Below, piece by piece: positions 9,066-25,343 of a DNA stretch of 64,000 nt. The position numbers were made by a program, and so were the translations under genes. The notes below the pieces were generated by a model. That model did no database searches and was not told the origin of the DNA. It worked only from the letters and a program-made list of their open reading frames with translations. The DNA comes from a virus, in the IMG/VR virus record IMGVR_UViG_3300029955_000004, positions 1-64,000 of that record; one strand, given 5' to 3'. How positions within the stretch are numbered: the first letter of the stretch is position 1; every line of letters starts with the position of its first letter.

Positions 9066-9078
9066 GTATATATTACTA
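9066..9078 (+). promoter_or_regulatory. TATATTAC-type early promoter motif
   Basis: TATATATTACTA lies about 45 bases ahead of the ATG at 9119 and contains TATATTAC, the published consensus of phiKZ early promoters. Confidence 0.6.
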
Positions 9079-9118: not shown

Positions 9119-9691
9119 ATGTCGCATATGAAAAAACTTATTATTCTTGTATTTATGTTCGTTGGATGTTGTATCAGTATTAAATATATTTATGATCGAC
9201 GCGACTATGATGAATATAATAATATTAATCACGAATCTACTAAAGTAGAAAAAGAATATTATTTAAATCAATGGAATAATTGTTTAAATCTTATAAACAA
9301 AAATAAAATCATGCATTGTGCTATTCCTGTCTTAACAGAACTCCAACGACACGATTTAGAAAATCCTGTGTTTGCATACTACTTTGGTATGACATATGAG
9401 TTATCAGATGAATCTGAATATGCTTATATGTATTATAAAGCTGCTGTTAAACAAGACCCAACTTTATCATTTGTTAAAGATAATGATGATTTTGAAAATA
9501 AATTTAATAAATTGGCTATTGAACATAATGATAAACAAGTAAGTGATTACATTACTTCATTTAAATTACAGAAAGAGAAAGATACTACACTTAAATCAAA
9601 ACGAGATACTGATGAACAATCTATTCTATCAGCTTATGTAGTTTCTATGTCATTAATTTGTATTGTAATTGTATTATTTATTGTAATTTAA
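9119..9691 (+). CDS. Bitopic membrane protein with TPR-like segment
   Basis: A hydrophobic N-terminal helix (residues 5-23, KKLIILVFMFVGCCISI) can act as signal or anchor, and a second membrane helix forms the extreme C-terminus (about 170-190). Between them, residues 75-115 (NPVFAYYFGMTYELSD, YAYMYYKAAVKQDP) look like a tetratricopeptide-type helix pair. An ATG three codons in (9128) is an alternative start. The preceding promoter motif suggests early expression. The role is unknown; a membrane scaffold or host-takeover factor would fit. Confidence 0.6.
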   Translation: MSHMKKLIILVFMFVGCCISIKYIYDRRDYDEYNNINHESTKVEKEYYLNQWNNCLNLINKNKIMHCAIPVLTELQRHDLENPVFAYYFGMTYELSDESEYAYMYYKAAVKQDPTLSFVKDNDDFENKFNKLAIEHNDKQVSDYITSFKLQKEKDTTLKSKRDTDEQSILSAYVVSMSLICIVIVLFIVI

Positions 9692-9708
9692 TACTTCGAT
9701 TTTTAAAT

Positions 9709-9725
9709 AAATATATATTATACAT
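9709..9725 (+). promoter_or_regulatory. Early-type promoter motif ahead of a non-coding region
   Basis: AAATATATATTATACAT, followed by TTG, closely resembles the stronger copies at 13994 and 19996, but TATATTAT replaces TATATTAC. No gene starts for more than 350 bases downstream. Confidence 0.5.
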
Positions 9726-9985
9726 TTGCTAGGTAGATGAGTATGTAATAAAAGCTACCAAGGAGAGAGTTTAACCTTTCTGGTTTTTCCAGTTGTGTTA
9801 AACTTCCCTTGTCAAACTTCTTCTTGTTGGTAATAAAAATCCATCTGCCTTGGATCACTGGGGAGTGATCTGCATAGGGCGTTGCCGAAGGAAATGGGAC
9901 GATGATCAAGAGAGAGTCGGGGCTCTTATTATCTCGTATTTTAATTTCTAAACAAAGAAAAAATTATTTTCTTAAAACAATAATT
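9726..9985 (+). ncRNA. Candidate structured non-coding RNA
   Basis: About 260 bases between a promoter motif and a terminator lack a credible gene. A 63-codon frame on the opposite strand has no ribosome site and is probably chance. The stretch is less AT-rich than other spacers. It can fold into a long hairpin at about 9760-9813 (AAGG/CCTT, GTTTAAC/GTTAAAC and CTGG/CCAG nested). It also has a second hairpin near 9855-9873 (GATCACT/AGTGATC) and a third near 9910-9928 (GAG/CTC arms). No tRNA, tmRNA, 6S or RNase P signature was seen. A long leader for the Nudix gene is the main alternative. Confidence 0.45.
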
Positions 9986-9991
9986 TCACGA

Positions 9992-10014
9992 AGAAGGGGG
10001 AATCCCCCTTCTTT
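9992..10014 (+). terminator. Rho-independent terminator
   Basis: A stem of ten to eleven pairs with GGGGG/CCCCC at its core and a tiny AAT loop is followed by TTTTCTTC. It closes the candidate RNA. Confidence 0.75.
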
Positions 10015-10091
10015 TCTTCTCAAAAACAAAAAATAATTTATATTAAAAATAATATGACTAATGCTTTTTGGCTTGATAGGGGCCTTGTTAA

Positions 10092-10529
10092 ATGAATAAC
10101 CGAACTAGAGTCTTTTTAAAGAATAAAAATAATGAAATCTTATTTATTATAAGAAAACCATCGCGAGAAAGACAACAGTTTAAAATCTTATTTCCTGGTG
10201 GTGGTAAGAAGTTTAATGAAGATGAAGCAGATTGTGGAATTAGAGAAATAAAAGAAGAATTAAAATTGAAACTTAAAAAGAATAAATTAAAATATTTATT
10301 TCATATTTATGATGAGAAATATGATTTTACCTTTTATGAATACGAAGATATACTTTTAAATGAAGAAGTCATTAATAATGAACCTGAGAATTTTTCAGAA
10401 GTCGTATGGTTAAAATTAGAGAATGTTAATAAATATATTTCTGATAATAACTTAGAAAGATCTACTAAATTTGATAATGCTTTAATGTTGTATTCTATGC
10501 TAGATGAAAATAAGGAATTAAAAAGATAG
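10092..10529 (+). CDS. Nudix hydrolase
   Basis: The Nudix box is intact: Gly37, Glu43, then Arg51-Glu52-Ile53-x-Glu55-Glu56, matching Gx5Ex7REUxEE. The 145-residue length is that of a single-domain Nudix enzyme. Such enzymes cleave nucleoside diphosphates linked to another group, such as oxidised dNTPs, NAD derivatives or capped RNA. The substrate cannot be predicted here. The ATG follows GGGGCC closely. It starts a short operon with the next gene. Confidence 0.88.
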   Translation: MNNRTRVFLKNKNNEILFIIRKPSRERQQFKILFPGGGKKFNEDEADCGIREIKEELKLKLKKNKLKYLFHIYDEKYDFTFYEYEDILLNEEVINNEPENFSEVVWLKLENVNKYISDNNLERSTKFDNALMLYSMLDENKELKR

Positions 10530-10548
10530 AATAAGAGGAAGTCTACAA

Positions 10549-11421
10549 ATGCCTAAACGGAATATAAGTAATATGAAAGTATTTCAAAAGATGTTATTTA
10601 GTAAATATCTCACCGTTGATGAAAATGATGTTATTCGTAATACACAAACTGGAAATATTGTTGGTAAAAGTAGTTCTAAGGTATATCCATTAGTTCAGAT
10701 TAAATATGAAGGAACTACATATAACATTGGGTGTCATTACATTATCTGGATGCATCATAATAACTTAAAGCTTCCTAATAGTGATTACATCATGTCTTTT
10801 GCAGATAAGAATCCTTCTAATTATAAATATGATAATATTGTTTATATTCCACGTGTCGATTTTATGAAAAAGATTAAAGGACGACAGAATAAAATAAATG
10901 ATAATAGATCTATGACTACAGAACAAGTTATCAGATGCAGAACAAACTATGCTAATGGTACACAATCTTTAAATGAAATAAAAAATGAATTACAAAAAGA
11001 GGGTGTTTGTATTTCAAGACCTTCTGTAATCTCTATGTTACATAATAAAACATATAAAGATATCCCCGCTGTTGAAAAAACTGTCACATTAACTGCTGGT
11101 GATAGAATTAAATCAAAACCAAAAGTTATTAGACCTAAAGTGGTAAAGGTAAAAGTTATTAAAGAAAAGATGCCAAGAATTAAGAAGGTAGTTGAAAAAC
11201 AAAATACAAATACTCTTCGTAGTTTCATATGTTATCATCTTAAACATATTAAACAACAGTCAGATGAATTTATCTGTTCTCTCTTTAATGACCTAACGCC
11301 AGAAACTATTGAAACAAATATCAATAACTATGATTTTAAATTGTATTATAAGAATAGAATACATTGTATTGAAAAGTTTAAAGATAAACCAAAACTTCTT
11401 AAGAAACTTATGCTTATTTAA
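10549..11421 (+). CDS. Degenerate HNH-like DNA-binding protein
   Basis: Residues 63-105 resemble the core of HNH homing endonucleases: GCHYIIWMHHNN, then DKNPSNYKYDNI in place of the usual DGNxxNNRxxNL. The IDHxD catalytic His-containing motif is replaced by IMSFAD, so nuclease activity is doubtful. A helix-turn-helix-like segment follows at about 125-165 (SLNEIKNELQKEGVCISRPS), then a Lys/Arg/Val-rich linker and a C-terminal helical domain. It probably descends from a mobile endonuclease and now binds DNA or RNA. The ribosome site is AGAGGAAG. Confidence 0.55.
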   Translation: MPKRNISNMKVFQKMLFSKYLTVDENDVIRNTQTGNIVGKSSSKVYPLVQIKYEGTTYNIGCHYIIWMHHNNLKLPNSDYIMSFADKNPSNYKYDNIVYIPRVDFMKKIKGRQNKINDNRSMTTEQVIRCRTNYANGTQSLNEIKNELQKEGVCISRPSVISMLHNKTYKDIPAVEKTVTLTAGDRIKSKPKVIRPKVVKVKVIKEKMPRIKKVVEKQNTNTLRSFICYHLKHIKQQSDEFICSLFNDLTPETIETNINNYDFKLYYKNRIHCIEKFKDKPKLLKKLMLI

Positions 11422-11479
11422 ATAATATTAATGAACTAAGGATCATATATTCACATTCTACCTGGGGGGTAGTTCAAAC

Positions 11480-11854
11480 ATGGGTAAGCGTAATCGTACT
11501 CAGTCGGATGATAACAATAGATCCAAGAAGAAAAAGAAAGTCATTGTTGGTTATGACGAAGTTATTACCCTAGCTAAGAAAAACGTAACAGATCCTACTC
11601 ATGGTAAATTTCTTACTGAACTGCTAAATAGAATAAAATTAAATAATAATAAATGTCTTTCATTTAAAGGATCTCACAATGAAACAATAAATGATATCTT
11701 TGATGAAAATAGAAATATTCAGAATATAAATATCGATTTTGCTAATAAAACATTCGCTAATATAATTGATTGTGTTAATACAAATTTCCTTCTTTTGCGA
11801 ATAATTGGTAATACCCTGAATGAAATGGGTCATGATCTTAGTTTCTCTTTTTGA
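11480..11854 (+). CDS. Hypothetical protein, 124 aa, basic N-terminus
   Basis: A strong GGGGGG-type ribosome site precedes the ATG. Residues 1-20 are highly basic (KRNRTQSDDNNRSKKKKKV), which suggests nucleic-acid contact or a flexible tail. The rest is predicted alpha/beta with no motif recognised. The gene lies between accessory genes of probable early function and is followed by a hairpin. Confidence 0.5.
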   Translation: MGKRNRTQSDDNNRSKKKKKVIVGYDEVITLAKKNVTDPTHGKFLTELLNRIKLNNNKCLSFKGSHNETINDIFDENRNIQNINIDFANKTFANIIDCVNTNFLLLRIIGNTLNEMGHDLSFSF

Positions 11855-11864
11855 TACATTCTGA

Positions 11865-11897
11865 CTATCCATAGGGCTCTTGGAGCCCTATGGATAG
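11865..11897 (+). terminator. Hairpin terminator candidate
   Basis: A 14-bp stem (CTATCCATAGGGCT and its complement) with a five-base loop lies just after the stop codon. No T run follows, so it may be a weak terminator or an RNA-processing signal. Confidence 0.6.
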
Positions 11898-11933
11898 CTG
11901 TCTCACAACTCTAAACAAAGGAGATGTTCTCTT

Positions 11934-12302
11934 ATGAATGATGCAGCTAAAAATAATTTCGATATCATTAAAAAAATGGATAAGTTTAAACTTCCTATTC
12001 ATGTAATTTATAATTGTGATATATCTAATACCAAAAAGTTTGTTGGCGTCAGTACAACGGGACTTCTAAGTTCTATGGGTGGCGCTTTACATATTTGCAA
12101 TATTCTCGGAAGAGATAATGTCAATGTCGGATGTTGGTTGACTCCTATAAAATTCAAGTGTAGTATTGAAGAACTTGAGATTGTTAAACAACTGCTTGAA
12201 GAAACTTTACAAATACCAGAACCACTATTCGATAGAGACAAATCATCTCTTGTTGTATTTTCAGTTAAAGACAATATCAACGATGTAAACATTTATATAT
12301 AA
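11934..12302 (+). CDS. Hypothetical protein, 122 aa
   Basis: AAAGGAG precedes the ATG with eight to nine bases of spacing. The protein has a globular alpha/beta pattern, with no membrane segment or signal peptide. Residues 40-60 contain a Gly/Thr/Ser loop (GVSTTGLLSSMGG) that might bind a ligand, but it is not a recognised P-loop. It is followed closely by a small membrane-protein gene. Confidence 0.5.
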   Translation: MNDAAKNNFDIIKKMDKFKLPIHVIYNCDISNTKKFVGVSTTGLLSSMGGALHICNILGRDNVNVGCWLTPIKFKCSIEELEIVKQLLEETLQIPEPLFDRDKSSLVVFSVKDNINDVNIYI

Positions 12303-12326
12303 CTCTAACAAATAAGGGATGCAATC

Positions 12327-12536
12327 ATGGAATCGCTCTTAGTATGTATACTCATTTATACTTGGATCGGATTAACAATTTGTATTGTCCAGAAAAAACA
12401 GTGGAAGGGAGCTTTGCACACTCCTACACTATTTGATTATTTATTATGGTTCCTTGGATGGTATATGATTTTACCCATAGAAATCTATACCAAATATAAA
12501 AATTATGAAATCATACATTACAGTAAAAAAGGCTAG
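12327..12536 (+). CDS. Small membrane protein, 69 aa
   Basis: There is one N-terminal membrane helix (residues 4-20) and a second hydrophobic, Trp-rich segment (about 37-52, FDYLLWFLGWYMILPI). The C-terminus is polar and basic. The ribosome site is AAGGGATG. Small two-helix proteins of this kind in phage early regions often act at the host membrane; no specific function can be assigned. Confidence 0.55.
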   Translation: MESLLVCILIYTWIGLTICIVQKKQWKGALHTPTLFDYLLWFLGWYMILPIEIYTKYKNYEIIHYSKKG

Positions 12537-13993: not shown

Positions 13994-14013
13994 AAATATA
14001 TATTACTATATTG
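13994..14013 (+). promoter_or_regulatory. Strong TATATTAC early promoter driving the tRNA
   Basis: The string AAATATATATTACTATATTG is identical to the copy at 19996-20015. The core TATATTAC is at 13999-14006, only seven bases before the first base of the tRNA acceptor stem. The transcript would therefore start at or very near the mature 5' end. Confidence 0.75.
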
Positions 14014-14084
14014 AGTTTATAGCTCAGTCGGTAGAGCGCGAGTATTTATATTCGATGTCGTTGGTTCGAGTCCAACTAAACTTT
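14013..14084 (+). tRNA. tRNA-like gene with a 6-nt anticodon loop (possible UUA anticodon)
   Basis: The cloverleaf can be traced base by base. The acceptor stem pairs 14013-14019 with 14077-14083. The D arm is GCTC/GAGC, and the T arm GTTGG-TTCGAGT-CCAAC is canonical. The anticodon stem CGAGT/ATTCG (14039-14043 and 14050-14054) encloses only six bases, ATTTAT, instead of seven. Taking U33 as 14045 gives anticodon UUA, which would read the stop codon UAA; this is tentative. No CCA is encoded. It could be a functional suppressor, a decayed tRNA, or a tRNA mimic. Confidence 0.65.
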
Positions 14085-15540: not shown

Positions 15541-15984
15541 CGATATCTTCAATAGGAGTCGTTACTTCCTACCCGTCTCTTTTGGAAGGAGACAGCTCTA
15601 TGTTTCCATAGATGTCGAGACTATATCTTCATCCTGCTCATACGAGGGAGGATGTCTCTCATTTCCATCTCACTTAAGATGTACAGATTGAAAAGATCTT
15701 AGTCGTTGAACGTTCTCCATGGCACATCATCCGATGTTCTGTAGGAGCTTCGCTGCTAATGAGGATCTTTGATCCTACGGTTGCCCATTTCCTATCCCAG
15801 TATGACTCTGGGGTCATCCGTCTCGTTTTCAGACCATCACGATTGTCGTTACCAACTGCGTTGTGGTGAGACAGCTTTAGGGGTTTCCAGCAATTAGAGA
15901 GAATTCTATCTCAAGATTTCACTTGAGTAGGACAGCTGTTCTGAATGATCTTACACGGATAGTATCCGTTTCATTCAGTTTTCT
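15541..15984 (-). ncRNA. Group I self-splicing intron in the RNAP beta-like gene
   Basis: On the minus strand the 444 bases contain the group I core strings in order: AATTGCTGGAAACCCC (P3/P4 side), GGGCAACC, AGCAGCGAAGCTCC (R-like), GTTCAACGACTAAG (P7 side) and AAGATATAGTC (P7/P3 closing). Boundaries come from protein alignment: removing the segment joins INED to AKRAN and restores the beta motif with exact spacing. The upstream exon then ends in U and the intron ends in G, as expected. The P1 guide pairing was not resolved, so the ends may shift by a few bases. It encodes no homing endonuclease. Confidence 0.85.
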
Positions 15985-23603: not shown

Positions 23604-25271
23604 TTAGAAAGGTCTTGAGACAGCTAATGCAAAATAATCAATACCATTTGTCTGTGCACCAATTAATAGTTGTTTCTGACTATTAATAACGGAAGCAATA
23701 CTATTTAAATAATTTAAGTTTTCTATATTTGCTGTATCTGACATCATTATGTTTCCAGAAGTCATATCGCCATCATAATCAGCATCAAGACCGGGTGCTC
23801 TTAATGCCGCAATAGTACAAGAATTATTAATAGGATTATCTAGGACAGGATATTGATTATATATCTTTCTTAAATTACCAGAAATAGCTGATCTCAGTTT
23901 TATGATACGACCAGGTGTCGTTGAAACCAAATGTATTTTACTGGGATAACAGGATTCATTCTGAATAACAGGATATCTAGTATTAAACATTGTCTTTTCG
24001 ATACCGTTATGAATAGCACTGAATGTTGACAAATAGAAAAGTTCTAACCAGGTTAAAGGTCTAATATATTCTTTTTTGATCTGTCTATTAAAAACATTTT
24101 TAAAGTCATTCATACCACGGAATAATGTAATTTCATCTCCTGTATCATATACCATAAACAGATAATATTCTTTATTATTTTTATCTCTAATACTAACAGG
24201 ACGTTTAGCAAAGTGAGGATTTTTAAATTTAGAAATAAGATCGCCAATAGCTTCATTTGTATTAAACTTAGCAAGTTCCTGATCAGTTACTTCCGTATAT
24301 TCTAGATTTAATGTCGATTTATTTGTTAATAGAATTTTATTATTACCTCTTTGTCCAAATATAAAATCAAAGAATGCTACTCTAACCCAATGAACAACAG
24401 CCGGTTGTAAACCTTTAGCTGCTTGTAATACACCAATCTTCGTTTCATCTGGTTTTATAACTTGTAAATCATTTGGTGTCATACATTGATATGAAGCACC
24501 CGTAATAACATTACGAGTTCCCCATGTAATCTTACGTTGTGCCCAAACACCATTAATAAATCCTTTTTTACCATCAACGATATTGTAAATATATTCATAA
24601 ATTTCAACCATCTTCTTTTGTAAATTTAATCTTACTGTATCGAACACAGCAGATTGCGCATTTTCCAATGAAGATAATGCTAATCCTAAGGATAAAGCGG
24701 ATGAATAAATCTTATTAATATCATCTTGAGAAATACGCTGTTGATCTTCTTCGATATCTCGTAAACCGGCAGGAAGTACTAATAAATATTTTGTAAATAA
24801 ATTACCTTCTTTCTTATATTTTTCAATATCTTTAATGCGATCTTCTCTAGCTCTAGATTCAGTTAATTTAAATTCTATTTTAGGAAGATACTTCATAAAG
24901 AAAGAGTAACCAGTACCGGCATCTATTGTTGTTTCAGGAGTTGGACACTTTTTAAAATCATTGATAGTATTATCAAAGATTGCATATTCTGTACCATTAA
25001 TAATATTCTCATAAAGAGATCCTAATTTTATAATATTTTTATAAATGAGAGGTTGTAAAATATAAGTATGCATATCTATATACCCAAAACTAACTAATCT
25101 TTTTGTATCACCGATCATTCCAAAAATCTGTTCTGAGAAAAAACCTTCTGAGTGAAATGATGTACTCGACGGTTCATAAATGGCATGCGACGTTATTGGT
25201 AAACAACCATTTTCTTTAATATATTGCTCTGGATTAATAAGCCAAATATTTAATGCATTTTCGACTATCAT
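23604..25271 (-). CDS. RNA polymerase beta'-like subunit, N-terminal half with catalytic loop
   Basis: The start is the ATG at 25271, preceded by GAAAGGAAA; an ATG eleven codons upstream lacks a ribosome site. DADYDGD at residues 496-502 is the beta' magnesium-binding loop (NADFDGD), with all three metal-holding aspartates. The region before it (RAPGL) also matches beta'. The N-terminal stretch EGFFSEQIFG resembles the beta' GLFCARIFG segment. The protein ends about 50 residues after the loop; the remaining half lies at 57205-58653 on the other strand. It is first in an operon with virion-like and radical SAM genes. Confidence 0.88.
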   Translation of the reverse strand: MIVENALNIWLINPEQYIKENGCLPITSHAIYEPSSTSFHSEGFFSEQIFGMIGDTKRLVSFGYIDMHTYILQPLIYKNIIKLGSLYENIINGTEYAIFDNTINDFKKCPTPETTIDAGTGYSFFMKYLPKIEFKLTESRAREDRIKDIEKYKKEGNLFTKYLLVLPAGLRDIEEDQQRISQDDINKIYSSALSLGLALSSLENAQSAVFDTVRLNLQKKMVEIYEYIYNIVDGKKGFINGVWAQRKITWGTRNVITGASYQCMTPNDLQVIKPDETKIGVLQAAKGLQPAVVHWVRVAFFDFIFGQRGNNKILLTNKSTLNLEYTEVTDQELAKFNTNEAIGDLISKFKNPHFAKRPVSIRDKNNKEYYLFMVYDTGDEITLFRGMNDFKNVFNRQIKKEYIRPLTWLELFYLSTFSAIHNGIEKTMFNTRYPVIQNESCYPSKIHLVSTTPGRIIKLRSAISGNLRKIYNQYPVLDNPINNSCTIAALRAPGLDADYDGDMTSGNIMMSDTANIENLNYLNSIASVINSQKQLLIGAQTNGIDYFALAVSRPF

Positions 25272-25343
25272 ATTTTTCCTTTCATTATATATATTAGGAT
25301 TCATAATATCGTGTAATAAGTTAAATATTATTTATATTAAAAA

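Follow-up and report, generated by a model that had tools for sequence, protein, structure and literature searches.

A predicted structured early non-coding RNA, possibly a conditional-termination leader of a Nudix operon, in a phiKZ-like giant phage

A discrete early non-coding RNA of approximately 287 nt (9728-10014, + strand) is very probably made from the 64,000-nt stretch of phage DNA analyzed here (the window), as judged from its sequence. The identity of its promoter, its terminator, the lack of coding, a stable 5' domain, and an alternative pairing are supported by sequence or computation. The role that we tentatively favor from the modeled folding is that of a leader that would terminate conditionally ahead of a Nudix operon while also releasing a discrete RNA.

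The window comprises the initial 64 kb of a 125,141-bp IMG/VR record (G000) from a phiKZ-like giant phage. The phage encodes a phiKZ-type multisubunit RNA polymerase (RNAP), of which a β' fragment (23604-25304, - strand) shared 31% identity with Klebsiella phage Eowyn and Vibrio phage pVa-21 at approximately 90% coverage. Marker genes that were 100% identical were found in three further contigs. The RNA region was present in one of these three, contig IMGVR_UViG_3300030004_000014, which was identical across the approximately 9.9 kb compared, and the 208-kb contig G002 overlapped G000 by 109 kb at 100% identity. Positions prefixed with U refer to the union of G000 and G002, which follows the G000 coordinates through 125141; beyond this point, the G002 coordinate is U minus 16077. 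The closest relative was IMGVR_UViG_3300043028_000007 (G005), with an RNAP that was 40% identical.

The transcript would begin at an early promoter, used by the virion RNA polymerase (vRNAP), with the element AAATATATATTAT at 9709-9721 (+ strand). Positions 9709-9728 read AAATATATATTAT ACATTT G, which corresponds letter for letter to the AR9 early consensus AAATATATATTAT-(6N)-G mapped experimentally by dRNA-seq (PMC5312081) and provides the AT-rich consensus AAATATATATTAT(6N)G of phiKZ-group early (vRNAP) units. From the AR9 spacing, we infer that RNA production starts at the G at 9728, 6 nt past the promoter element. The motif was strand-specific in the phage, with [AG]TATATATTA[TC] counted 21:0 (+:-) in G000 and 29:0 in G002, the contig that overlaps it; the ratio was 1:17 in G005, where the switch of strand matches the inverted orientation of the early genes. 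Within the window, TATATTAT was scarcer than expected by chance (5 vs. 22.4). De novo expectation maximization (EM) on the spacers, to which the motif was not supplied, recovered the early motif as ATATATTAcTtaatTG, and an EM search for late promoters returned only terminators and the early motif. The 18-base form of the motif was found 13 times in G005 and seven times in G048, and it was almost missing from 34 other phiKZ-like records.

The early motif was mostly located just upstream of genes, and nearly all sites had an ORF start within approximately 65 nt. The sites lacking a close ORF were 9709 (ORF at +364, past a terminator), the tRNA at 14013, U148377, U152603, and intragenic sites; early site U20779 was followed only by short ORFs. 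A dedicated early promoter precedes the tRNA (14013-14084, + strand), which is possibly degenerate and whose anticodon call ('tt') is unusual.

The transcript is predicted to end at an intrinsic terminator hairpin at 9991-10013 (+ strand), which reads AAGAAGGGGGA-A-TCCCCCTTCTT and continues into a T-rich tail (TTCTTC past the arm), and which lies, as in rho-independent attenuators, between the promoter and the Nudix ATG at 10092. Two terminator-like sites were detected in the 2.5-kb region scanned (0.5 expected), with 9991-10013 on the + strand. EM on the spacers separately yielded a family of GC-rich short-loop hairpins distributed over dozens of spacers phage-wide, and this family includes 9991-10013. 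The original prediction of a promoter-like motif on the 5' side and a strong terminator on the 3' side is therefore borne out by an exact AR9 promoter and this hairpin; its length of approximately 260 bases was too short for the promoter-terminator segment of approximately 287 nt.

Coding capacity was evaluated using a hexamer score trained on the phage itself, for which true 44-codon windows scored 0.66 (sd 0.24) and off-frame windows scored -0.72. The ORFs in 9692-10091 scored from -0.7 to +0.34 per hexamer (-0.14 to +0.19 for those of at least 20 aa), while the genes flanking the RNA scored 0.52 and 0.57. A small-protein gene was ruled out by this score. The sole sizeable + strand ORF (9902-10036, 44 aa) has a plausible ribosome site, yet it passes through the terminator. 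The region thus holds no credible gene, as had been proposed, and it is also less AT-rich than the other spacers, with a GC content of 41% (9728-9945) compared with a spacer median of 30%.

The three hairpins suggested earlier, one of them nested with GTTTAAC/GTTAAAC, are real predictions of the folding model. The nested hairpin P3/P4 (9768-9804, + strand; GTTTAAC/GTTAAAC and CTGG/CCAG), the hairpin P5 (9852-9871, + strand; GATCACT-GGGG-AGTGATC), and the terminator all had pair probabilities near 1. A closing helix, P1 (9731-9850, + strand; 9731-9739 with 9842-9850), is predicted to enclose P2-P4, and its pair probability was 1.0 in transcripts ending at 9850-9890 and 0.67 at full length. P2 (9754-9832, + strand; 9754-9757 with 9828-9831 and 9759-9766 with 9819-9826) had a probability of 0.5 in the full RNA, with P2alt (9759-9763 with 9807-9811) as an alternative. 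Relative to dinucleotide shuffles, the stability z-score was -3.4 for the RNA with the terminator, about -2.0 to -2.7 without it, and about -4.5 for the 5' domain (9728-9872), a measure that is no evidence of function.

These values bear on whether the segment is simply the 3' untranslated region (UTR) of the early gene upstream (9119-9691), including a terminator shared with it, or an inconsequential leader, with an incidental fold. The z-score of the whole RNA without its terminator is compatible with this, and the interval from the stop at 9691 to the RNA promoter contains no terminator; transcription initiated at the early promoter at 9066 therefore probably also terminates at 10013. The perfect early promoter directly ahead of the RNA and the z-score of the 5' domain argue against it, and we consider this explanation unlikely. 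A 3' UTR location would in any case not exclude function, as phiKZ has a stable RNA processed from a 3' UTR (PMC8545117).

The 5' domain is rod-like, and GTAATAAAA occurs on each strand of its AU-rich internal loop (9745-9753 and 9830-9838), as it might in a 6S-like decoy that mimics either an open promoter or a different host RNA and aids the shutdown of host transcription, which a phage with its own RNAPs does not need. Such a decoy is highly improbable: P1 is only 9 bp long, the GTAATAAAA repeat may be due to chance, and a 6S covariance match was absent among the Rfam matches up to an E-value of 10.

A role as a leader of the Nudix gene had been named as an outcome that would refute the original prediction if it were the only role. 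The preference for a leader of the Nudix operon, which is slight, arises because the 5' arm of the terminator has a predicted antiterminator partner within the RNA. The strand CTTCTTCTTG at 9817-9826 (+ strand), which is also the P2 3' strand, is complementary to CACGAAGAAG at 9987-9996 (+ strand; inverted repeat I3), and the last six bases of the latter belong to the terminator 5' arm. In a growing-transcript computation, the antiterminator reached an equilibrium probability of 0.94 once position 9996 was made, with P1 at 0.04. For transcripts ending at 9996-10008, 9817-9826 paired with the terminator 5' arm at probabilities of 0.52-0.94 and P1 was at 0.01-0.11; completion of the terminator reversed this state (terminator 1.0, P1 0.67). 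The arm was sequestered equally well by 1-2% of 200 shuffled upstream sequences and by 0.8% of 120 random phage upstream segments, figures that apply to a pairing spotted post hoc in a single sequence. As modeled, this alternative pairing would provide the anatomy expected of an attenuator.

In the favored mechanism, the injected virion RNA polymerase would initiate at G9728 within the first few minutes of infection, producing a structured non-coding RNA of approximately 287 nt that would normally end at the terminator. Its likeliest role would be conditional termination ahead of the Nudix operon (10092 onward). With P1 and P2 held, 9817-9826 would be hidden in P2, the terminator would form, and the short RNA would be released (OFF). 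If P1 and P2 were opened during synthesis by a protein, a ribosome, an antisense RNA, or a ligand, 9817-9826 would pair with 9987-9996, which would weaken the terminator and allow read-through into the Nudix operon (ON). Both the regulated read-through and the opener of the switch are elements that we infer.

The genomic setting supports the leader role. The operon begins 78 nt past the terminator with the Nudix hydrolase gene (10092-10529, + strand; Pfam NUDIX, E-value of 1.8e-8), the genes at 10092-12536 lack an early motif of their own, and there is a precedent in the phiKZ 5'UTR-p40. Against an attenuator, the terminator probability was 1 at full length and P1 was folded approximately 150 nt earlier; default kinetics would thus favor plain termination and, as P1 forms early, may do so unless something opens it. 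Furthermore, the antiterminator is predicted to pair with the terminator foot only, and the GGGGG-AAT-CCCCC core could remain. No known riboswitch or leader was matched in the RNA. The operon may also use a later promoter of its own, for which a weak second-class candidate, AATAATATG, is located at 10047-10057 (+ strand), 44 nt upstream of the Nudix start. The word AATANTATR, picked post hoc, occurred seven times at 38-54 nt before starts (0.67 expected), and it is a candidate promoter of the non-virion RNA polymerase. Its occurrences at 10047-10057, U60095, U94776, U160051, and U182985 were 42-52 nt before the starts of genes without early promoters.

This candidate Nudix promoter fits with a free-standing early non-coding RNA that would act in trans (by base-pairing with mRNAs of the host or the phage, by binding to a host protein, or as a scaffold), with a constitutive terminator and a separately expressed Nudix operon. 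We regard such an RNA as the main alternative, ranked slightly behind the leader; the two readings have the discrete early RNA in common. Its own promoter and terminator are of the standard types of the phage, its GC content is high for a spacer, and the early promoter at 9709 is followed by a terminator before the distant ORF, while almost all others have a gene close by. A non-coding RNA of approximately 297 nt, misc_4, was detected by RNA-seq in phiR1-37 (PMC4848604), and a second promoter-terminator unit is present at U152619-152750. This short early unit has no coding ORF of more than 11 codons and ends at a strong terminator, downstream of which lies another early promoter; free-standing short early RNAs thus also seem to occur. 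Action in trans would leave the pre-terminator pairing unexplained, at a frequency of 1-2% by chance, and it has no conservation support, as no homologue was found in the collections searched. The original prediction of a structured RNA between an early promoter and a terminator is well supported in its anatomy, and its designation as a regulatory RNA is plausible; the suggested host-targeting role is neither favored nor disfavored by these observations.

The RNA is an orphan in the collections searched. Rfam gave no credible match at the gathering thresholds or at E-values up to 10, and no aptamer or leader family; a minus-strand match to snR43 (E-value of 0.0048; 24 bits vs. a gathering score of 60) was attributed to chance. 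The Group I intron model (Intron_gpI) was not found at the RNA, and it scored 67.7 bits at 15596-15954 (- strand), where an intron lies between two RNA-polymerase subunit reading frames. A distant blastn search of GenBank phages and plasmids returned only AT-rich or terminator-derived fragments, none of which spanned the RNA. Four pattern scans of IMG/VR retrieved only the identical contig and one chance match, a 19-mer in an 8-kb contig of GC-rich unrelated DNA. An RNAP profile identified no relative among GTDB genome contigs, and the one RNA hairpin pattern used had no match there. The single-sequence covariance model R1 found nothing in 42 relatives, the phage's own genome, and G005, a negative that is weak evidence of absence. 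The only homologue in these collections was an identical copy, and they yielded no diverged relative for the covariation analysis that had been suggested.

Other loci of the phage and its relative were also ORF-poor or structured. A 4.8-kb ORF-poor region outside the window (U137292-142060; G002 121215-125983) is GC-rich (42%) and has several tRNAs, between which stretches of approximately 1.4 and 1.1 kb lack coding ORFs; parts of the region folded with z-scores of -4 to -6. Its position resembles that of the GOLLD and ROOL giant RNAs near phage tRNA islands, and it had no Rfam match up to an E-value of 1 and no match in GenBank phages. A second structured early leader or RNA (U148393-148745; G002 132316-132668; z-score of -4.1) follows the early promoter at U148377 and ends in a large closing helix and a T-rich tail; the ORF at U148771 lies 25-30 nt further downstream. 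It had no database relatives, and its likeness to the RNA described here, one 15-nt match (CACTGGGGAGTGATC), was within the range of shuffles and was dismissed. In G005 (131099-130650, - strand), an early promoter is followed by approximately 450 nt of ORF-poor sequence with a GC content of 40% before the next ORF; this locus had no Rfam match, and its fold was not above shuffles.

The phiKZ 5'UTR-p40, from the same broad phage group, is likewise a discrete structured RNA upstream of a gene. This 180-nt RNA was seen experimentally before gene p40, and its second stem-loop was proposed to terminate transcription prematurely, with larger read-through transcripts also seen (PMC8545117). In contrast, no sequence relation to it was found, and the promoter, terminator, and antiterminator described here are predicted from sequence only. 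Northern-confirmed phiKZ non-coding RNAs derive from UTRs, and none had been predicted by phiKZ transcription start site mapping (PMC8545117). The misc_4 RNA of the phiKZ-related giant phage phiR1-37 (NC_016163, 61640-61936; PMC4848604) is also structured, intergenic, and ORF-free, with a fold z-score of -6.0 vs. shuffles (L162:1180-1460), and its location upstream of an NTP-pyrophosphatase gene parallels the Nudix-linked RNA. It differs in its AT-rich long palindromes, in showing no similarity by model R1, and in having no TATATTAY promoter visible in the stretch examined. The AR9 early units share the identical promoter consensus and the G start 6 nt downstream (PMC5312081), whereas a CDS was located within approximately 130 nt of each early promoter annotated in AR9 1-100 kb, and none of these promoters drives an ORF-free terminator-ended unit. 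With terminator-type riboswitches and attenuators, the RNA shares a 5' domain predicted to fold early, a candidate antiterminator whose formation would exclude that of the terminator, and a gene just downstream, but it has no known aptamer, ligand, or conservation.

To our knowledge, only a very small number of non-coding RNAs have been described in phages. An RNA unit that carries both an early promoter and a terminator of its own is a clean case in which to test whether a giant phage produces structured RNA ahead of all its proteins. It is a doubtful but broader proposition that a bistable RNA, read by the virion-injected multisubunit RNAP, would sense a host factor or nucleotide just as infection begins and decide the expression of the Nudix operon, as one of several large structured early RNAs. 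We know of no description of RNA-leader control of phiKZ-type virion RNA polymerases; if the switch is real, these polymerases would be controlled by RNA leaders.
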